Origin: Komagataeibacter sucrofermentans DSM 15973
GTDB lineage: Bacteria > Pseudomonadota > Alphaproteobacteria > Acetobacterales > Acetobacteraceae
Assembly: GCF_040581405.1 (NCBI RefSeq)
Contig: NZ_CP137157.1
Coordinates: forward strand, 1,554,001 to 1,618,000
Direction of reading: 5' to 3'
Length of the DNA stretch: 64,000 nucleotides
Positions 45,203-57,100 of the stretch are shown piece after piece (within the stretch, counting starts at the first letter, position 1; every line of letters begins with the position of its first letter). The notes below the pieces were generated by a model. That model saw nothing but the letters and a program-made list of their open reading frames with translations, searched no databases and was not told the DNA's origin. Position numbers and translations under genes: made by a program.

Positions 45203-47206
45203 ATGGGGGGACAGAGCACCGCATTTCCCCTGCACGGCGCCCCGGATACGGGCCTGCTGCGCCATATCCGGCGTTTTTCATGGATTTACGCGCCTTCGCT
45301 GGCCGATCTGGGCTTTGCGGTGCGCACGTCGTGCGCCGCTATCCTCTCGCTGCTCATCGCCATGTGGATGGAACTCGACAGCCCGCAATGGGCACCGCTG
45401 ACCGTGTGGGTCGTGGCGCAGTCCTCACGCGGGGAGAGCCTGTCAAAGGCGCGATGGCGGATTGTGGGCACGCTGGCGGGCAGTGTGGCCGCGATTACGC
45501 TCATGGCCGCCTTTCCGCAGGCCCCGGCCATGTTCTTTGTCTGCCTGGCACTCTGGATCGGGCTGTGCTGCGCCCTTGCCACCCTGCTTGATCAGTATCG
45601 CGCCTACGGGCTGGTGCTGACGGGGTTCACCTCCGCCATCATCGCAACCGGGGCCATCGTGCAGCCCGATGATGTGTTTGCCGTAAGCGTTGCGCGTAGC
45701 AGCTACATCATACTGGGCGTGCTGTGCGAGGCGGTGCTAGCCGTACTGTTCATGCCCAACATGGTCGAACGCACCCGCGCGCAGTTGCAGGCGCGGCTGG
45801 ACGATACATTCCACGCCACCTGCGCCGCCATTCCGCAATTACTGGGCATGACCGCGCCTGCTGCCCGGCAGGCCGCGACCGGCAGGCTGCTGGACCGGAT
45901 CATGGCTTTTAGCGGGCAGATCGAATTCGCGGCCCTCGAACTCGGGCCGCGCAACCGGGTGGGCGATCATGCCCGCCGCGCGCTGGCGGGCATGCTGGTC
46001 ATGCTTGCCCATGCCCGCGCCCTGCAGATCCTCTCCCCCCGGCCTGATGCCAGCCCCCTGCCCGCGCATGAGCCACCCGAGCGCGCGCTGGCCACATGGC
46101 TGCACGACCATGCGCCCCCGCCCGACCCTGACAACATGGCGGCACACGCCTGGCAGCCGGTTGCCGTGGCGCTGACGCATGAAGCCACGGTGGTGCATGA
46201 TGAAATGCTGGCCTGCCAGGCCACCCGCCATGACGACCGGTTCCGCTTCAGCCTGACCTCGCGCCGCCATGCGCGTGAGGCGGTGCATAACGGCATCCGC
46301 TCCAGCACTGCCATCATGATGGCAGCCGTGATGTGGGAGATCACGGCATGGCATCATGGCCCGGCCTTCATCTCGTTCGTGGCGCTGATCTACGGGCTGA
46401 TGGCCACGCGCGAGAACCCGCTGGTCGCCACCCTTCCCTTCCTCAAGGGGGGGCTGTGGTGCACGGCCACCGCCGCCATCATGGCGCTGTGGGTCATACC
46501 GGCCATCACCTCGCCCGAGATGCTGCTCGCGGCCCTGCTGGTGCCCATGACCATTGGCGGGCTGGCCGCGCGCAGGCCGCAGCTTGCGGGCCATGCCTTC
46601 TCGTTCAACATGTTCCTGCCCGTGCTGATCGGCCCGATGAACCAGGGGCGGTATGACGAGGTCGCCTTTCTCAACAACGCGCTGGCCTTCGTGGCCAGTA
46701 TCGTGTTCGTTCTGCTGACCTACAGGCTGGTCATCCCCTTCCGGCTTGATGTGCATATCCGCCGCACCGCTGCGGCCATAAACCGCCGGCTGCGCCATCT
46801 GGCCCAGAGCCGCGATCGCACCAATGCCACGGCGTGGCTGGGCGCCTGCGCGGCAAGCCTCGTACGCATCCTGCATCAGGCCACCGCCGTGCCGCAGCCT
46901 ACCGTCAATGCCTGCCTGAGCGAGCAGATCGGGGCGATGACGGTGGGCCTGTACATCATCCGCCTGCGCGACATGTTGCGCACGGGCGCACTGCCGCCAC
47001 GGGCCATGCGCATGGTCGCGCTTTTTCTGGCGCGGTGGCAGCGCGGGCAGGCTGGCCCCACCACCGCACATGTGCTGGCCTGGCTGCGCCATGAACAGAC
47101 CCGCCCCCATGCGGCGCACGACCGCGCAAGCCTGGCCGAGGCCGTGGCCTGCCTGCACATCATTGCCGCAAGCCTGCATGAGCATGAGCCGGACGTGCCA
47201 TGGTAA
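45203..47206 (+). CDS. FUSC-family (AaeB-like) efflux protein
   Basis: A 667-residue inner-membrane protein with the duplicated FUSC design: a first set of about six helices at 38-185 (FAVRTSCAAILSLLIAMWME, with SPQWAPLTVWVVAQSSRGES), a soluble domain to about 370, and a second set at 370-530. It resembles AaeB and other aromatic-acid efflux or multidrug proteins. There is no AaeA membrane-fusion gene next to it, so its partner is unknown. The ATG follows AAAGGC. Confidence 0.88.
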   Translation: MGGQSTAFPLHGAPDTGLLRHIRRFSWIYAPSLADLGFAVRTSCAAILSLLIAMWMELDSPQWAPLTVWVVAQSSRGESLSKARWRIVGTLAGSVAAITLMAAFPQAPAMFFVCLALWIGLCCALATLLDQYRAYGLVLTGFTSAIIATGAIVQPDDVFAVSVARSSYIILGVLCEAVLAVLFMPNMVERTRAQLQARLDDTFHATCAAIPQLLGMTAPAARQAATGRLLDRIMAFSGQIEFAALELGPRNRVGDHARRALAGMLVMLAHARALQILSPRPDASPLPAHEPPERALATWLHDHAPPPDPDNMAAHAWQPVAVALTHEATVVHDEMLACQATRHDDRFRFSLTSRRHAREAVHNGIRSSTAIMMAAVMWEITAWHHGPAFISFVALIYGLMATRENPLVATLPFLKGGLWCTATAAIMALWVIPAITSPEMLLAALLVPMTIGGLAARRPQLAGHAFSFNMFLPVLIGPMNQGRYDEVAFLNNALAFVASIVFVLLTYRLVIPFRLDVHIRRTAAAINRRLRHLAQSRDRTNATAWLGACAASLVRILHQATAVPQPTVNACLSEQIGAMTVGLYIIRLRDMLRTGALPPRAMRMVALFLARWQRGQAGPTTAHVLAWLRHEQTRPHAAHDRASLAEAVACLHIIAASLHEHEPDVPW

Positions 47207-48001: not shown

Positions 48002-48703
48002 CGGGCACGGACAATTATTTTTTCATATTGGCTCAATTTAAGGAAAACTATTATCCATAAATGAAGTTAATGGGATGTGGCTTTCGTGACACCACAACGT
48101 CTCCCAATCCCTAAACTTGGCGTCCCGTCTTCCGGCGGGACGCCCTTTTTTTTGCTCAGGCTTTCTGCAGGCCGGGCTGGCATAGGTCAACAACCTGCCA
48201 TCGCGCCCCCTCACCTTGTCGGGCACCTTGAGCTCGGCTCGGCGCGCCATACATCCGGCCCCACCCGGACGGAGTGGCGGTGCGCATCGCCCTTCCCGTT
48301 CACCACATTGCCGGGACAATGCCGGTCGATGCACTGCAACAGGCGGTTGCGGCTGTACGGGGAGCCTGATCCGGGGCCCATGCTGCAAAACAGCTCACCC
48401 TGTGGGGTGCGAAGCCTTCTCCTGCCGAGAGGGCAACCATTTTTCGCTCAACGGCTTCCCCATCCCATCTGGTGCTGCTGGAAAAGACCGTTGCTGTGTA
48501 AGGATTTCAAAGAAAGCATTTGTGACAGTTTCATGAAATTTGCCTGTCCATGACAGGACAGACGTTTTCTGTTTCTGTCATTGTGTCATGATCCGCCTCA
48601 ACGGCGCCCTGCGCACAAACCCCGCTTCATGCGCGCAGGCCACCAGATGAATACGCGCCTGACCCTGCCCTTTCGTAACCTCCAGTGTTGTTCAAGCCAT
48701 ACC
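48002..48703. other. Gap with candidate sRNA and gene remnant
   Basis: About 700 bases. The left part holds a stem-rich stretch ending in a strong terminator (48119-48153) with no ORF before it, so a small RNA transcribed from the AT-rich region at 48010-48060 is possible. Further on, about 48240-48375, a plus-strand frame after a stop reads VRIALPVHHIAGTMPVDALQ and then AVAAVRGA before a stop; it looks like the tail of a lost protein. Confidence 0.35.
48119..48153 (+). terminator. Strong intrinsic terminator, possible sRNA end
   Basis: Arms GGCGTCCCG and CGGGACGCC around TCTTCCGG, followed by a run of T (nine bases with one interruption). It lies 118 bases after the preceding stop codon, beyond an independent small hairpin (TGTGG/CCACA). 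Confidence 0.85.
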
Positions 48704-49558
48704 ATGACCAGATCCAGACCTGCCGCCCTTTTCGCCCACCCTGCATGGGGGCTGGGGCTGCCCCTTCTGGCGGGGCTGTTTGCCGCAGCCGCGCTGGCCA
48801 GCACGCCCTGCCCCGCGGCCGACCCGCTTGAGCCCACAACGCCCGAGACGGGATATTTCACCCCCGCCACCCAGCCGGATGCAACCGCCTACCTGCCACC
48901 TCCGCCCCAGCCCGGCACGGTGCGGCAGGCGAATGATGACCAGGCTTTCGCCGCCACCCGCGCCTTGCGGGGCAGTCCACGCTGGGCGCTTGCAACGGCG
49001 GATGCCGACCTGCATGAAAATGCGCTGCTGCACAGCTTCTCCTGTGCGGCCAGCCTGCCCCTGAGCACCAGAAATGCGCCAAAACTCAGCGCGATCATTC
49101 ACAAGATGGATGTGTCGGAAATTGCCGACATGCGTCAAAGCAAGGCCTACTGGCACCGGCCGCGGCCCTTTATAGGGAACAGCCAGCCCATCTGCACCGA
49201 AAAGGATCGGGCGCATCTGGCCACGTCGGGCGCCTATCCTTCCGGCCACACCATGCTGGGCTGGAGCACGGCGCTTGTGCTGGCCGAACTGCTGCCTGAC
49301 CGCGCAACGCAGATCCTGCAACGTGGCCGGGTGTTTGGCGAGAGCCGGATCATATGCGGCGTGCATTGGGAAAGTGACGTGCAGGCAGGCTACATGCTGG
49401 GCTCAGCCGAGATTGCCGCCCTGCATGGAAGCCCGGCCTTCCGCGCGGATATGGATACGGCCCGGACGGAACTGGCCGCCCTGCGCGGCAAGGCCCCAAC
49501 GGCAGCGACGCCATCATGCGCCCTTGAGCAGGAGGCAGCCAGCCATTCGCCCCTGTAA
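48704..49558 (+). CDS. Class A nonspecific acid phosphatase
   Basis: A 284-residue PAP2-superfamily phosphatase with a signal peptide (hydrophobic 15-33, ending AAD). The three-part motif is complete: KAYWHRPRPF, YPSGHTMLGW and GESRIICGVHWESD. The catalytic histidines are the one in PSGH and the one in VHWESD. Such periplasmic enzymes release phosphate from many monoesters. I prefer the ATG at 48704 because it begins a standard signal peptide; no start has a strong ribosome site, and ATG 48647 is an alternative. Confidence 0.88.
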   Translation: MTRSRPAALFAHPAWGLGLPLLAGLFAAAALASTPCPAADPLEPTTPETGYFTPATQPDATAYLPPPPQPGTVRQANDDQAFAATRALRGSPRWALATADADLHENALLHSFSCAASLPLSTRNAPKLSAIIHKMDVSEIADMRQSKAYWHRPRPFIGNSQPICTEKDRAHLATSGAYPSGHTMLGWSTALVLAELLPDRATQILQRGRVFGESRIICGVHWESDVQAGYMLGSAEIAALHGSPAFRADMDTARTELAALRGKAPTAATPSCALEQEAASHSPL

Positions 49559-49799: not shown

Positions 49800-50258
49800 A
49801 TGAAAAAAAGACTGCTGGCCGCCCTGTTCTCCCTTTCCCTTCCCGCAGCGCCTGCCCTCGCGGCGGATGGCGCAGCCCTGTTCCAGACCAACTGCAGCGC
49901 CTGCCACCAGGCCGATGGCCAGGGCGTGCCCGGGCAGTTCCCGCCGCTGGCCGGGCGCGTAAGCAAGATCGCCGCAACACCGGAAGGCAGGCAGTATGTC
50001 ATTGCCGTGGCGCTGAATGGCCTGATGGGGCCGATTACCGCTGCGGGCAATACCTATGCAAGCTTCATGCCGCCCTTCAAGACCCTGCCCGATGACCAGA
50101 TCGCAGCCATTCTGAACCATGTTGCGGGCCTGCCCTCAGGCCCCGATGCAACCGTGTTTACTGCTGAAGACGTTGCCGCGGGCCGCAAGGAATCCCTGAC
50201 CCCACCCGCCGTAATTGAAAAGCGCAAGGCGCTTGACGCGCAGCATCCGCTGCCCTGA
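49800..50258 (+). CDS. Periplasmic c-type cytochrome
   Basis: A 152-residue monohaem cytochrome c with a signal peptide (1-21, ending ALA). The haem site CSACH is at 32-36 in TNCSACHQADGQGVPG, and the axial methionine is likely in FMPPFKTLPDDQ. A C-terminal extension of about 40 residues is polar. It converges on the RidA-cytochrome-amine oxidase operon with a terminator between. It may serve that operon or another periplasmic dehydrogenase. Confidence 0.9.
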   Translation: MKKRLLAALFSLSLPAAPALAADGAALFQTNCSACHQADGQGVPGQFPPLAGRVSKIAATPEGRQYVIAVALNGLMGPITAAGNTYASFMPPFKTLPDDQIAAILNHVAGLPSGPDATVFTAEDVAAGRKESLTPPAVIEKRKALDAQHPLP

Positions 50259-50275
50259 GCCGCAGGCACAAAAAA

Positions 50276-50303
50276 GGGGGATCGAGCCGATCCCCCTTTT
50301 TTT
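50276..50303 (+). terminator. Terminator after cytochrome c gene
   Basis: Arms GGGGGATCG and CGATCCCCC around a three-base loop, with a run of T after and a run of A before. It can work in both directions. Confidence 0.92.
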
Positions 50304-50355: not shown

Positions 50356-50868
50356 TTATTTGCCCGGCGCGCGCACGGCCGTGGTCTCGATTTCAATCAG
50401 CCATCCCGGATTGGCCAGATGCGCCACGCCAAAGGCCGAGCGCACCGGCAGGTTGGGCTGCTTGGCCGAAGGACCGTAGAACTGGGTGTAGGCTTTCATC
50501 ATGCCGTCAAAGTCAAGCTTGCCCAGCTTGGGGTCTTCCACCATGTAGACATGCATCTGCACCACGTCGCCCATGCCCAGACCCAGCTTTTTCAGCTCAT
50601 CCTGAATGCGCTGCAGGGCTGCATAGGTCTGCGCCTGCGTATCGCCATAGGCGGCAAGGCTCTTGGGGTCGGCCTTCTTGTCCTGCACCGGCGCGCCCAT
50701 GCCGCTGAGATAGACGGTGGAGGCCCCCGCAGGCACCTCGATGGCGGTGGAAATGGGGAATTTCCCCTCCACATGGCGCACGATACCATCATCGGCATAA
50801 GCAGGCATGGCAGCCGCCATGCCGCCAAGAACGGCCATGGCGGCAACGGTTTTTTTCAGGTCGAACAT
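50356..50868 (-). CDS. Exported RidA-family imine deaminase
   Basis: A 170-residue RidA (YjgF/YER057c/UK114) protein with an N-terminal signal peptide (hydrophobic 9-21, ending AYA). Cytosolic RidA hydrolyses reactive 2-imino acids to 2-keto acids. The catalytic arginine in PVRSAFGVAHL and the glutamate in LIEIETTAV are both present, so activity is likely. Its start (ATG 50868, AGGAG upstream) follows the cytochrome c stop by four bases. Export places it with the flavin amine oxidase, whose imine product it could hydrolyse. A periplasmic location is unusual for RidA. Confidence 0.88.
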   Translation of the reverse strand: MFDLKKTVAAMAVLGGMAAAMPAYADDGIVRHVEGKFPISTAIEVPAGASTVYLSGMGAPVQDKKADPKSLAAYGDTQAQTYAALQRIQDELKKLGLGMGDVVQMHVYMVEDPKLGKLDFDGMMKAYTQFYGPSAKQPNLPVRSAFGVAHLANPGWLIEIETTAVRAPGK

Positions 50869-50872
50869 TCTC

Positions 50873-51298
50873 TTACTGCTCCTGTGGTGTTGCGGGGGGC
50901 CGCTGGGCCGCCACGTCAGACGCACTTACGGCATCGGTATAGTGATTGCCAAAATGGGTGCGGATATAATTCACCACATTGGCGATCTGGTCATCTTTGA
51001 GCGTGCCTGAAAACCACGGCATGCCACCATAACCATTCAGGATCACATAAACCGGGTAGGCGCTGCTCTGCAGCTTGGCGTTGCCTGCAAAGGCCGGGAA
51101 CTGCGCCCCGGCCCCCATCGCGCCCTTGCCATCAGGCATGTGGCAGCCCTGGCAGACATGGCGGTACACATCCTCGCCGGTATTGAGCGGCTGCACGCTG
51201 CCCACCACGGCGGCGGCGCTATCGGCGCGCGCGGGGCCAACGGGGGCGGCAAGCAGCGGCAGGGCCGCAAGCGCGGACAGGAGAAGGATCTTACGCAT
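50873..51298 (-). CDS. Periplasmic c-type cytochrome of the amine oxidase operon
   Basis: A 141-residue monohaem cytochrome with a signal peptide (1-25, ending ARA). The haem site CQGCH is at about 49-53 in HVCQGCHMPDGKGAMG, and the axial methionine is probably in GGMPWFSG. The start overlaps the amine oxidase stop by one base, so translation is coupled. It is the probable electron acceptor of that flavoprotein. Confidence 0.92.
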   Translation of the reverse strand: MRKILLLSALAALPLLAAPVGPARADSAAAVVGSVQPLNTGEDVYRHVCQGCHMPDGKGAMGAGAQFPAFAGNAKLQSSAYPVYVILNGYGGMPWFSGTLKDDQIANVVNYIRTHFGNHYTDAVSASDVAAQRPPATPQEQ

Positions 51299-52902
51299 CA
51301 GCTGGCTCCCTGCGCGCGCTTGTGCAACTGGGTTACGGCATCAAGGGCGGACAGGATGGCGCCTTCCTGCCAGCAGCCGACATAGGATGCGTGCTCGCCT
51401 GCCAGAACCACGCGGTTATCCATCGCGCACAGGGCCTTGTAGTGGGTCTTGCGGGCCTGCTCGCTCCACATCGAGCAGCAGCCCATGGACCACGGCACGC
51501 GGCTCCAGGCGAAGCTCACGCCGTTGGAGAATTCCTTGCGGTAATGCCTGGGGTGGATGGCCTCGCCCTGTGCCAGCGCGTGCTCGATGCGCTCCTGCGG
51601 CGTCATGCCCGCAAAATCGTAGGCTGCCGGGCCAAACATGTAGCCGCCAAGCAGCACGGCTGGCCCGCGCGAGAAGTAACCATGGCTGGGATAGGAGATC
51701 TGGCTGATGGGCTGGTCGGTAAAGCTGATGCCGCCGTAGATCTGGTCTTCTTCCTCCCAGAAGCGGCGCTTGAACTCCAGCCCGAGCTTGACGGAGGAGG
51801 CATAGGGCACCGCCATGATCGCGGCCTTGAGCGGCGCGCTGACCTGCACGTCAAGCTGCGAGAGCACGGGCAGCGGTATGGTGCATACGCAGTAATCGGC
51901 CTTGGCCTCACGCACGACGCCGCCATGGTTCATGTCGTTATAGGTAACGCTTACGCCCTTGTCGTCCTGATGGATGGACGTGACCTTGCAGTTGAGCGTG
52001 ATGAGATCGTGCACCTGGCGGTTGAAGCCCTTGCCGATCATGTCCATGCCGCCCACGGGCTGGAACATGGTGGTCTGCATGTCGAGGCGTTCGTGGAAGG
52101 CCATCCACGTCCACAGGCCCGAACCCAGCACGTCCTTGCGGTCGAACAGGTCAGAGGGCACCGGCTCGCCATTCAGGCCGCCGCCCTGCGCCTTTTCATA
52201 GCCACGACATTCGGAGCTGATCACGCCCTTGCGGTAGTTCAGCCCGGAATCAAGGCTGCCCCACTGGCGCATGGCCGTGCGCAGGTGCTCGCGCTCATCA
52301 GGCGAGACCACATCATCAAGCTTGTGCTGGTCAATCGCCTTGCCCAGCAATTCGGCGGTAAAGCCATTGAAGTCAGCGGCATACTCGCGGTAGCGCACGG
52401 CCTTGCCGCCAAATGCCTTGCTCGAATGCAGCCATGAATTGTGGTTGAGCTCGACAAACGGCTCGAGTTCCACACCAAATTCCCGGCAGTAATGCAGCAG
52501 GCCCTGATGGTGGTAGGGAATGCGCCACGGGCCGGGATTGATGTAGTTGCCCGATGCGAAACCGACCTTCTGGGTGGCGCCGCCAAGCTCGGTTACCGTG
52601 TCACCGCCACGCAGGCTGATGTTGCGGCCACCGGCGCGCCCCTGAAACTCCAGTATCTGAACCTGATAGCCCGCCTTGCGTAGTTCGTAAGCGGAAAGCA
52701 TGCCCGCAAGCCCTGCGCCAAGCACCAGCACGCGGGTGCCGCGCTTTGCACCCGACAGAACGGGCGGCGCGGTAAAGTCCGTGCCCTGCGCATGGCCCAT
52801 GGAAGTCATGGCTTGATACAGCGCGGCACTACCGGCCAACGTACCGATACGGGTAAGGAGTTGCCTACGCGTGGGGGCTTTGCGTGGATGAGCGTTTGTC
52901 AT
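51298..52902 (-). CDS. Tat-exported flavin amine oxidase
   Basis: A 534-residue flavoprotein of the monoamine/L-amino-acid oxidase family. The Tat signal is TRRQLLTRIGTLAG (11-24). The FAD dinucleotide motif is VLGAGLAGMLSAYELRKAG (60-78) with the GRAGGR loop near 86-91. The C-terminal FAD segment VVLAGEHASYVGCWQEGAI with a conserved aromatic pair is present. The start at the ATG at 52902 gives the Tat motif near the N-terminus; the ribosome site is weak. Likely substrates are amines or L-amino acids. Coupling to a cytochrome c suggests dehydrogenase action rather than hydrogen peroxide production. Confidence 0.92.
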   Translation of the reverse strand: MTNAHPRKAPTRRQLLTRIGTLAGSAALYQAMTSMGHAQGTDFTAPPVLSGAKRGTRVLVLGAGLAGMLSAYELRKAGYQVQILEFQGRAGGRNISLRGGDTVTELGGATQKVGFASGNYINPGPWRIPYHHQGLLHYCREFGVELEPFVELNHNSWLHSSKAFGGKAVRYREYAADFNGFTAELLGKAIDQHKLDDVVSPDEREHLRTAMRQWGSLDSGLNYRKGVISSECRGYEKAQGGGLNGEPVPSDLFDRKDVLGSGLWTWMAFHERLDMQTTMFQPVGGMDMIGKGFNRQVHDLITLNCKVTSIHQDDKGVSVTYNDMNHGGVVREAKADYCVCTIPLPVLSQLDVQVSAPLKAAIMAVPYASSVKLGLEFKRRFWEEEDQIYGGISFTDQPISQISYPSHGYFSRGPAVLLGGYMFGPAAYDFAGMTPQERIEHALAQGEAIHPRHYRKEFSNGVSFAWSRVPWSMGCCSMWSEQARKTHYKALCAMDNRVVLAGEHASYVGCWQEGAILSALDAVTQLHKRAQGAS

Positions 52903-54509: not shown

Positions 54510-56714
54510 TCAGTTCACGTCGTCCAGCGCATAGACCACAAGGTCATCCGTCACCGGCGTCATCATGAAGTGGTGGCCACCGGCCATGATGGCGACATAC
54601 TGCTTGCCCTTGTATTCATACGTCATGGGCGTGGCCTGGCCGCCACCGGGCAGCACGTCGTTCCACACTTCTTTGCCGGTATGGATATCGAAGGCATGGA
54701 TCATGTTGTCGGTTGTCGCGGCAACAAAGATCAGCCCGCCAGCGGTAATGACCGGGCCGCCATTGTTAGGCGTGCCGATGGTCAGCGGCAGGTGCGTGGG
54801 CAGGCCAAACGGGCCGTTGGCGCGCGCGCTGCCCAGCGGGTGCTGCCACAGCACTTTCTGGGTGTGCATGTCGATCGCGGTAATCATGCCATAGGGCGGG
54901 CGGTTGCACATCATGCCCGTATATTCATCCCAGAACGGCGAGACCACGATGCCATAAGGCGTTTCCGCCATGGCGCCAGCACCTTCGGCACCGCCGCCGC
55001 CGGGCTTGAAGTTGGGGTCATCCACCGGCATCAGGCCCAGCTTGTCGGCCTTCTTGCGGCTGACCAGCTGGTCATACATCGGCGTGTTGTTCCAGTTGGC
55101 GATCAGGATACCGGTCTTTTCGTCATACGCCACGCTGCCCCAGTCCGAGCCACCGTTATAGCCGGGATATTCCAGCCAGGGCTTGTCGATGCTGGGCGGG
55201 GTGAACTCACCCACGTAATGCGCGCGCCGGTATTTCAGGCGGCAGTAAAGCTGATCGATGGGGGACATGCCCCACATGTCGGCTTCCTTGAGCGGAGCGA
55301 AGCCAAGGCGCGGCATGCCAACCGACCAGGGCTGCGTGGGCGAGCGCGTGTCACCCGGCACCATGCCTGGCGAAGGCGCGGGCCGTTCTTCAACCGGCAG
55401 CACCGGGTCGCCCGTGCGGCGGTCGAGCACGAACGTCTGGCCACGCTTGGTGGGCATGATCAGGGCCGGAACCGTCGAGCCATCAGGCTTGGTGAAGTCC
55501 ATCAACGTGGGCTGCGAGCCGATGTCGTAGTCCCACACATCCTTGTGCACGGTCTGGAACACCCAGCGCGGCTCGCCGGTTTTCACGTCAATCGCCACGA
55601 CGGCGGAGGAGACCTTGTTTTCTTCCGGGCTACGCATGGCGCTGTAGTAATCGGCAGCCGAGTTACCTGTGGGCACGTAAACCAGCCCCAGCGCGTTATC
55701 ACCAATCATGGCCGCCCAGGAGTTGGGGGTGCCGCGACTGTAATGCTCGCCTTCCTTCGGCTCGCCATGTTCATGCGGACGGTTGACATCCCACGCCCAC
55801 AGGAAGCGCCCGGTCTCGGCGTCATACCCACGGATCACGCCCGAGGGCGCCCAGCGGCGCTGGCCATCGAGAATTTCCTGGTTGGTGATGATCGCGCCAT
55901 TGACGATGGGCGGCGGCGCGGTCTCGGCCACGAAGCCGGGCACCGACTCACCCATGCCCTTCATCAGGTTGACCATGCCGTGCCAGCCAAAGCCTTCGCA
56001 CACCTTGCCATCTTCGCTGTCCACCTCGATCAGGCGTTCATCAAGCGTGGCTTCAAGAATACGGTGATGACAGTGCTCGCCTTCCGGCACGGTGGAGGAA
56101 GTGTAATACACCACCGCCTTACACGCCGCCGTGTAGGGGATGCTCTCGTATTTCTCGTTGGCATGGAAATGCCAGACTTCCTTGCCGGTAGCGGGGTCGA
56201 TGCGCATCATGTCGTTCAGCGCGGAACACATGTACAGGCCGTCACCCACCTTGATGGGCGTGGTCTCGGCCGCCCATTTATTGGTCTGCCCCGGCCCCGG
56301 CTTGCTGCCGGTGTGGTAGATGAAGGCACGCTTGAGGTGGCCGATATTGGCAGGCGTGATCTGGTCAAGCGGCGAGAAGCGGGTCGCCTTGTCATCACGC
56401 CCGTAGCCGGGCCAGTCATCATGCGCGGGGTTGGCCGTGACCTGGTCCACCATGGGGGTGGCTTCGCTCGGCTCGGCAGGCGGACCGTCAGGGATGTTGG
56501 CAGCGTTCACACCCGGAGACTGGGGCGCATTGGGCGAAGGCGCCGAGAACGCATCGGTCGGCGGTGTTGGCGTGCCGGGCGCAACCGTGGCATTGCCATT
56601 GCCGGGCGGCTGGTCAGCAGGGGGAACCTGCGCAAGTGCCGAGGCGCCAACGGTGCCCGCAATAATGGTGGCGCCGAGCAGCAGAGTGCGCAGCATGGGG
56701 GTTTTGGCGGACAT
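54510..56714 (-). CDS. sldA: PQQ-dependent polyol (glycerol/sorbitol) dehydrogenase large subunit
   Basis: Membrane-bound quinoprotein that oxidises glycerol, D-sorbitol, D-arabitol and similar polyols at the periplasmic face and reduces ubiquinone. It has 734 residues with a signal peptide (1-28, ending ALAQ) and a Pro-rich linker, then an eight-bladed PQQ propeller starting DDWPGYGRDDKATRFSPLDQ. Tryptophan-docking repeats include TGKEVWHFHA and TGEPRWVFQT. No haem site is present, which separates it from the alcohol dehydrogenases. The start overlaps the sldB stop (TAATG) with GGGAGG upstream. Size and the separate small membrane subunit point to SldA rather than glucose dehydrogenase. Confidence 0.92.
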   Translation of the reverse strand: MSAKTPMLRTLLLGATIIAGTVGASALAQVPPADQPPGNGNATVAPGTPTPPTDAFSAPSPNAPQSPGVNAANIPDGPPAEPSEATPMVDQVTANPAHDDWPGYGRDDKATRFSPLDQITPANIGHLKRAFIYHTGSKPGPGQTNKWAAETTPIKVGDGLYMCSALNDMMRIDPATGKEVWHFHANEKYESIPYTAACKAVVYYTSSTVPEGEHCHHRILEATLDERLIEVDSEDGKVCEGFGWHGMVNLMKGMGESVPGFVAETAPPPIVNGAIITNQEILDGQRRWAPSGVIRGYDAETGRFLWAWDVNRPHEHGEPKEGEHYSRGTPNSWAAMIGDNALGLVYVPTGNSAADYYSAMRSPEENKVSSAVVAIDVKTGEPRWVFQTVHKDVWDYDIGSQPTLMDFTKPDGSTVPALIMPTKRGQTFVLDRRTGDPVLPVEERPAPSPGMVPGDTRSPTQPWSVGMPRLGFAPLKEADMWGMSPIDQLYCRLKYRRAHYVGEFTPPSIDKPWLEYPGYNGGSDWGSVAYDEKTGILIANWNNTPMYDQLVSRKKADKLGLMPVDDPNFKPGGGGAEGAGAMAETPYGIVVSPFWDEYTGMMCNRPPYGMITAIDMHTQKVLWQHPLGSARANGPFGLPTHLPLTIGTPNNGGPVITAGGLIFVAATTDNMIHAFDIHTGKEVWNDVLPGGGQATPMTYEYKGKQYVAIMAGGHHFMMTPVTDDLVVYALDDVN

Positions 56715-57100
56715 TATGCGACCTCCCGCACGGATGTTGAGTGAGCGCTTTCCATGCGGCGCAGGGCGGGCAGGCACAGAGCCACGGCAATGGCGAGGAT
56801 GGTCGGCCCGAACACGCGGGGCAGCAGGCCCCAGCCATCAAACCCGACTTCCCAGAAAGCCCACAGCCACGTCACGCCAACAGCGGCCAGATACAGCATG
56901 GCCCCCATGGAGCGGCCCATGGCCATGAGCACGCCCGCTGCCGTGACGGCAATGCCAATAATGACATAATACCAGGAGCCACCCAGAAACATGAGTTCGG
57001 CACCCATATAGGCAAGGGGCAGCCCCAGAAGAACGATAACAACCGCAAGACCCAGGATCGCCCACGCGGCGGGGGTCTGTGGTTTTATGAAAGCTGACAT
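56714..57100 (-). CDS. sldB: Membrane subunit of polyol dehydrogenase
   Basis: A 128-residue protein with five hydrophobic helices (about 13-30, 34-50, 54-66, 67-83 and 92-110), equal in size to SldB of Gluconobacter and similar to the N-terminal membrane domain of glucose dehydrogenase. It is needed to anchor and activate SldA. Its ATG at 57100 is preceded by GGAGG (about ten bases upstream). The pair is transcribed from the long gap on the right. Confidence 0.9.
   Translation of the reverse strand: MSAFIKPQTPAAWAILGLAVVIVLLGLPLAYMGAELMFLGGSWYYVIIGIAVTAAGVLMAMGRSMGAMLYLAAVGVTWLWAFWEVGFDGWGLLPRVFGPTILAIAVALCLPALRRMESAHSTSVREVA

Follow-up and report, generated by a model that had tools for sequence, protein, structure and literature searches.

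A probable periplasmic L-amino acid dehydrogenase unit, with an exported Rid3 protein, in a three-gene operon of Komagataeibacter sucrofermentans

RidA proteins have been studied as guards of cytosolic pyridoxal phosphate (PLP) enzymes. Here, we examine a 64,000-nucleotide stretch of the 3.44 Mb genome of Komagataeibacter sucrofermentans DSM 15973 (contig NZ_CP137157.1, positions 1,554,001 to 1,618,000; hereafter the window), in which a Rid protein with a signal peptide is encoded together with an exported flavoprotein and a cytochrome c. All three genes are on the minus strand, and the open reading frames of the window bear out the coupling and the positions given by an earlier interpretation of this DNA (the sequence-only reading): the flavoprotein and cytochrome c genes share one base (TGATG), and a gap of 4 bases separates the cytochrome and Rid genes. 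The three proteins match the Pfam families Amino_oxidase, Cytochrome_CBB3 and Ribonuc_L-PSP, respectively (E-values 2.2e-54, 7.1e-13 and 3.4e-15). In window coordinates, the features of the operon are:

51298 to 52902, minus strand: lao, predicted flavin-dependent L-amino acid oxidase/dehydrogenase, 534 residues, starting MTNAHPRKAPTRRQLLTRIG (from Pfam, solved-structure matches and identity to the protein of strain PAL5, introduced below)
52785 to 52902, minus strand: twin-arginine translocation (Tat) signal region of the flavoprotein, with TRRQLL (from sequence)
51478 to 51480, minus strand: codon of Cys475, at the alignment position of MAO-B Cys397
50873 to 51298, minus strand: cccA, predicted small exported monohaem cytochrome c, 141 residues (from Pfam and an alignment, A3)
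51140 to 51154, minus strand: single haem-binding motif of the cytochrome, CQGCH (from sequence)
50356 to 50868, minus strand: rid, predicted Rid3-type imine deaminase with a signal peptide, 170 residues (from Pfam, solved-structure matches and alignment)
50794 to 50868, minus strand: predicted Rid signal peptide, residues 1-25, with cleavage at AYA/DD placed by eye and a crude signal rule satisfied
50440 to 50442, minus strand: codon of Arg143, which aligns with RidA's catalytic Arg (for its role, see PMC4433059 and PMC5619798)
50392 to 50394, minus strand: codon of Glu159, aligned counterpart of the active-site Glu of RidA

We propose that the operon probably specifies a unit for the dehydrogenation of L-amino acids in the periplasm, composed of the flavoprotein, a cytochrome c that accepts its electrons and an exported Rid3 protein that hydrolyses its imines. 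The Tat-exported flavoprotein would oxidise an L-amino acid (tryptophan in the published orthologue) to an imino acid; the partner cytochrome c, and not O2 in the main, would take the electrons singly from the reduced flavin. Hydrolysis of the imine to a keto acid and ammonia would be accelerated by the exported Rid3 protein, which shares this compartment. For tryptophan the keto acid is indole-pyruvate, which in a plant-associated orthologue would lead on to auxin. We infer that flavin-to-cytochrome transfer is direct and that Rid is exported and acts in the periplasm. The reaction sequence was put forward by the sequence-only reading and is likely right, although it had already been proposed for the orthologue in strain PAL5 (PMC5053998).

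The gene block and its published orthologue

By gene order and protein identity, the operon is orthologous to lao-cccA-ridA (GDI2456-2454) of Gluconacetobacter diazotrophicus PAL5, published by Rodrigues et al. in 2016 (PMC5053998), and is hence known. The genes, their order and their strand are the same, both flavoproteins have a Tat signal, and our flavoprotein is 83% identical to the PAL5 L-amino acid oxidase (LAAO; locus L118), a locus in which all six primers of that paper can be placed where they should lie, five exactly and one with one mismatch. Two PAL5 Tn5 mutants, both in lao (GDI2456), make no indole-3-acetic acid (IAA) from tryptophan and leave tryptophan in the medium; the transcripts of lao, cccA and ridA fall together in the lao mutant; and mutants in cytochrome c maturation (ccm), from earlier work cited in the same paper, make 5% of wild-type IAA (PMC5053998). 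Its authors report the Tat signal of the LAAO, and propose both electron transfer to the cytochrome and imine hydrolysis by RidA. PAL5 belongs to another genus, and the role in auxin and tryptophan metabolism is known from PAL5 alone. The route connects amino acid oxidation with the supply of auxin in plant-associated bacteria.

Contrary to the sequence-only reading, to which an exported RidA tied to its imine source looked new, the system is known: the same operon and its mutant phenotype are in print, and a periplasmic LAAO with a RidA partner has been described in Chlamydomonas (PMC10805672). The Chlamydomonas proteins, LAO1 with LAO2/RidA, share with our operon the periplasmic LAAO, the RidA partner and the production of auxin from tryptophan; they differ in being eukaryotic and in relying on a peroxide-making oxidase, and the accessible text mentions no dedicated cytochrome in their own cluster (PMC10805672). 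The occasional clustering of Rid3 genes with flavin adenine dinucleotide (FAD) amine oxidases was also recorded by Niehaus in 2015 (PMC4433059). On the other hand, a signal peptide on RidA goes unmentioned in the accessible text of PMC5053998, which includes both of its uses of 'signal peptide', so the earlier observation of an exported Rid does add something. What appears new is limited to three points: export is general in this Rid group, some of its members are paired with a second kind of flavoprotein, and a cysteine of the flavoprotein tends to go with the cytochrome.

The three-gene block recurs far beyond chance. A survey of 150 genomes of the family gave 20 strong matches to Rid, including its own (E up to 3.1e-28), after 28 weaker matches were set aside as other Rid types. 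The order flavoprotein-cytochrome-Rid on one strand is found in 16 of the 19 relatives; the exceptions are two loci with neither partner nearby (L040, L049) and a fragment whose cytochrome gene is on the opposite strand (L048). Profile searches of 398 genomes of the phylum found Rid in 25, the flavoprotein in 27 and both in 24 (hypergeometric P ~4e-34, kinship ignored), and in all 24 genomes with both, the two genes lie within 3.5 kb. One genome has Rid without the flavoprotein (G457, a partial gene), and three have the flavoprotein without Rid (G222, G286, G468). Among 80 named loci, the exact order is kept in 65, a figure that is not blind to linkage, since these loci came from a search with Rid whose alignment consisted mainly of linked Rids; the phylum search for the flavoprotein is less biased, though its profile also came from linked loci. 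Rid comes first in 2 of the 80 loci, and 2 cyanobacterial loci have the flavoprotein and Rid with no cytochrome. The closest named relative at the locus is Komagataeibacter xylinus (97% identity in Rid, 99% in the flavoprotein).

Rid is thus tied to its imine source in most relatives, as the sequence-only reading expected, while a minority has what that reading named as its own refutation, a Rid unlinked to such a flavoprotein: 11 of the 80 named loci show no such flavoprotein in the stretch examined (one of them, L109, is a 3.8-kb contig). In six of these 11, all from Pseudomonas (L122, L123, L124, L126, L128, L135), a flavoprotein of the DAO family with a Tat signal lies directly upstream of Rid (assigned by Pfam for L122 and L124, and by tblastn for all six), and it may be a second kind of exported imine source beside Rid3. 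The same 11 include a Halomonas locus with a major facilitator superfamily (MFS) transporter gene beside Rid, and a Dyella locus with a GntR-aminotransferase gene in that place.

The flavoprotein and its cytochrome partner

We now consider what the flavoprotein oxidises. The sequence-only reading described a Tat-exported flavin amine oxidase, of which the Tat signal stands: across 115 aligned flavoproteins, the second Arg of the twin arginine is present in 115 and the first in 114, with Lys in the remaining one. The enzyme type does not stand. By its structural matches, the flavoprotein is a relative of LAAOs, rather than a general amine oxidase; its best solved match is the R. opacus LAAO (2jae, 303 bits, E 3.4e-89), other LAAOs come next, and MAO-B matches at only ~1e-11, so we rejected the more general label. 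As is the rule for LAAOs of the R. opacus type, its homology extends over the full length and includes an FAD-binding Amino_oxidase domain. Two residues of the R. opacus enzyme, Arg84 and Tyr371, presumably bind the carboxylate of the substrate, and we take Arg127 and Tyr421 to be their counterparts. Arg127 is aligned with the R. opacus Arg and is present in 115 of 115 rows; position 421 is Tyr in 112 rows and Phe in 3, its match to the R. opacus Tyr having been counted by hand with an accuracy of two positions.

The Pfam assignment specifies only an amine oxidoreductase, and would allow an amine or a D-amino acid as the substrate, in place of L-amino acids. We consider such a substrate very unlikely, given the gap between the LAAO and MAO-B matches (E 3.4e-89 versus ~1e-11) and the failure of the PAL5 orthologue mutants on L-tryptophan (PMC5053998). 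The relationship to LAAOs, the invariant Arg127, the PAL5 orthology and the mutant phenotypes together favour an enzyme that acts on L-amino acids.

The partner cytochrome resembles c6-like and cbb3-type domains; of the solved chains, that of the haem subunit in quinone alcohol dehydrogenases matches it best (E 2.8e-8). Cytochromes of the cccA type are defined here by alignment A3 (A3-type). The phylum survey contains 31 copies of the flavoprotein, 20 of them above 600 bits and 11 at 376-460 bits. An A3-type cytochrome lies alongside every one of the first group (20/20) and none of the second (0/11); Rid accompanies 14 of the 20, and is within 3.5 kb in 10 of the 11. At three loci of the second group (L084, L085, L088), a different cytochrome, 206-220 residues long and with two Cytochrom_C stretches, sits between the flavoprotein and Rid. 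In a tree of 115 flavoproteins from all samples (110 different rows, as some genomes are included twice), 2 changes account for the cytochrome label and 7 for the Rid label, and the 105 cytochrome-paired rows are divided from the 10 unpaired rows by a single branch (Shimodaira-Hasegawa-like approximate likelihood ratio test, SH-aLRT, 91). From the survey pairing and these label changes, the cytochrome appears to be the constant partner of a flavoprotein clade, and Rid a common but losable one.

This clade-wide pairing, including a different cytochrome in the same slot, points to the cytochrome as the electron acceptor, and there is a precedent. NicA2 and Pnao of Pseudomonas putida S16 are exported relatives among flavin amine oxidases, encoded together with the cytochrome c CycN, which accepts their electrons; they differ in their substrates, nicotine and pseudooxynicotine, and in that no Rid is part of the operon as described in the accessible text (PMC9396064). 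Such enzymes are marked by fast electron transfer to the partner cytochrome and a slow reaction with O2; the likeness of our operon to them is one of gene pairing. Neither NicA2 nor Pnao is named among the best 60 of the 86 solved matches of our flavoprotein.

A single residue follows the same division. In MAO-B, Cys397 holds the flavin covalently, and Cys475 of the flavoprotein is aligned with it (alignment with a MAO-B fragment, subsequently checked). Of the rows with an A3-type cytochrome, 95 of 102 have Cys at position 475; the 3 rows with the other cytochrome all have it (98 of 105 paired rows in total), and none of the 10 rows lacking a cytochrome does. This association reflects few independent events, with only 2 changes in the cytochrome label, and the seven cytochrome-paired exceptions have Gly; a Fisher P therefore overstates it. 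At this position Ala is found in the R. opacus LAAO, as judged by eye. The alignment suggests a covalent, MAO-like flavin at Cys475, which would suit one-electron transfer to haem. In the open-licence literature, we found neither the cytochrome-marked clade nor the Cys475 pattern. The cytochrome pairing and the linked cysteine may offer a sequence mark that separates amino acid dehydrogenases from peroxide-making oxidases.

Several relatives have further genes at the locus. A TonB-dependent receptor gene is located between the cytochrome-less flavoprotein and Rid at two loci (L092:3323-5992 and L094:4628-7285), hinting at the uptake of a larger substrate. Another locus (L096, genome G303) carries the flavoprotein-cytochrome pair twice, and Rid twice as well, within ~10 kb.

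The exported Rid3 protein

The best solved relatives of the operon's Rid are PFL1385 (PFL_1385) and PSPTO3006 (PSPTO_3006) (E 7.7e-29 and 2.9e-27; chains 9bkc and 9bka), which are both classed as Rid3 and which both hydrolyse imines produced by an LAAO in vitro (PMC5619798). Rid3 proteins keep the Arg and Glu of RidA and have Ile in place of its Tyr (PMC4433059). Arg143 and Glu159, which the sequence-only reading correctly found intact, are present in the operon's Rid together with an Ile in an FPIS motif, and by this residue pattern it is a Rid3 protein. The two solved relatives share these residues, and the accessible texts do not mention their export (PMC5619798, PMC4433059). Across 19 aligned relatives, both Arg143 and Glu159 belong to the nearly invariant positions (90% or more).

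The signal peptide described by the sequence-only reading is also there. It is of the Sec type, with a likely cleavage after AYA at residue 25, and begins at an ATG that the N-termini of relatives favour; an alternative GTG start exists 19 codons upstream. We assessed export with a crude home-made rule, which asks for a hydrophobic run of 10 residues without charges, a preceding segment that is not net negative, and small residues ahead of the cut. The rule holds for 18 of 20, 21 of 24 and 78 of 80 Rid relatives in three partly overlapping samples (117/124 taken together), versus 1 of 31 further members of PF01042 taken from the host genome and its relatives (locus L209 left out); the other three PF01042 genes of the host genome are among these controls. 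The one control that passes is a false match that extends into the domain. Among the relatives that fail, three look exported by eye, with the rule broken or the start codon not where expected (L048, L049, L109), one was read in the wrong frame (L169), one is a broken fragment (L098), and two Rids from Pseudomonas are genuinely without a signal (L093, L095). Four relatives have lipobox-like ends (by eye; L077-L080).

Were Rid cytosolic, its hydrophobic N-terminus would be accidental or unused, as the two Pseudomonas relatives without a signal might suggest. Set against the counts above for relatives and controls, and against the lipobox-like ends, this possibility is close to negligible, and we rejected a chance hydrophobic N-terminus. 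The Tat regions of the flavoproteins in L093 and L095 are not among the ten least hydrophobic, and no matched loss is claimed. These counts, together with the known activity of Rid3 proteins on LAAO-made imines (PMC5619798), argue for an exported imine hydrolase, and export appears to extend nearly throughout this Rid3 group. We found no statement in the open-licence literature that Rid3 proteins are exported; 'periplasm' and 'signal' occur 0 times in PMC5619798, as do 'periplasm' and 'signal peptide' in PMC4433059. A Rid group that is exported almost universally raises the question of which imines do harm, or merit clearing, outside the cytoplasm.

Instead of hydrolysing imines, the exported protein may mainly lend structure or stability to the flavoprotein. 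Imines hydrolyse spontaneously in water, and PLP enzymes are not expected in the periplasm. Moreover, the periplasmic LAAO complex of Chlamydomonas has a RidA subunit that is called non-catalytic (cited in PMC5053998). We nevertheless consider a structural role unlikely. Arg143 and Glu159 are kept in nearly all of the 19 relatives, two Rid3 proteins hydrolyse imines in vitro (PMC5619798), and the six Pseudomonas loci with a DAO-family partner fit a shared imine chemistry better than they fit a fixed subunit.

The electron outlet and the surrounding genes

Several observations weigh against the dehydrogenase unit proposed here. A COX1 search of the genome found no intact cytochrome c oxidase. 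In the PAL5 Tn5 mutant the cccA and ridA transcripts drop as well, and consequently the roles of these genes were not separated (PMC5053998). Rid is missing beside 6 of the 20 cytochrome-paired copies, which implies that it is not essential. Finally, the Rid signal peptides were judged by our own rule, not by SignalP.

The first of these points bears on the claim of the sequence-only reading that electrons reach the respiratory chain through the cytochrome, which is awkward in this genome. The COX1 family has two members here, a 664-residue bo3-type quinol oxidase and a 471-residue COX1-like protein. The gene of the latter (L219:1138-2553) adjoins a CtaB-like gene and is decayed, its CuB and haem histidines being absent by eye; it matches a 'deranged' COX1-like gene described for Acetobacter (PMC10715153). 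The usual cytochrome c oxidase thus seems to be absent and, with only the quinol oxidase and a decayed paralogue found, the cytochrome must have some other outlet. A cytochrome c1 gene is present, with a CCP_MauG gene ~4 kb away. With no cytochrome c oxidase apparent, the electron outlet becomes a concrete question.

One answer would be that the flavoprotein is an ordinary oxidase, which uses O2 and releases peroxide, and that the cytochrome serves elsewhere, for example by supplying electrons to a cytochrome c peroxidase, which would destroy the peroxide. The best solved match, the R. opacus LAAO, is a named oxidase, and the genome has a CCP_MauG gene and, by the COX1 search, no intact cytochrome c oxidase; peroxidases of the CCP_MauG type may re-oxidise cytochrome c in acetous taxa (PMC10715153). 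Against an ordinary oxidase stand the pairing throughout the clade, with two different cytochromes in the same slot, and the ccm mutants, whose auxin falls to just 5% of the wild-type amount (work cited in PMC5053998), and we regard it as improbable.

The dehydrogenase reading can be extended, tentatively and with considerable doubt, to a separate bacterial class of L-amino acid dehydrogenases of the periplasm. A cytochrome c of their own and a MAO-type flavin held covalently by Cys475 would set these enzymes apart, and a Rid group that had left the cytoplasm would serve them by clearing imines. If this were true, acetic acid bacteria, with no working cytochrome c oxidase, would drain electrons from amino acids through a hitherto unrecognised outlet for cytochrome c; a peroxidase could provide it, or a membrane quinoprotein through its haem subunit.

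Around the operon, a scan of the locus for promoters and terminators gave no promoter-like site, and terminators at chance level. Upstream, a gene for 3-methyladenine DNA glycosylase lies 240 bases away on the same strand. Downstream, an inverted repeat was found by eye, which the scan did not list:

50270 to 50303, no strand: GC-rich inverted repeat with A and T runs at its flanks, between convergent genes; a possible two-way terminator

The gene that converges on the operon from this side (49800-50258) encodes a second small cytochrome c. We rejected it as a part of the operon, because, among the mapped loci, a convergent cytochrome gene beyond Rid turned up in the nearest species alone (L105), and none beside the operon in other genera.

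Farther out, window positions 54510-57100 contain a membrane dehydrogenase dependent on pyrroloquinoline quinone (PQQ), split into two open reading frames, one for a 128-residue membrane part and one for a 755-residue propeller part. Both match TIGR03074 under its cut-off; we take the arrangement to resemble that of the SldB/SldA polyol dehydrogenase. An exported acid phosphatase of the PAP2 type is encoded at 48581-49558, with a match to PhoC that is below the cut-off. A FUSC-family efflux protein at 45203-47206 has a distant likeness to the aromatic acid exporter AaeB, and lies near the present operon, whose orthologue yields aromatic keto acids.

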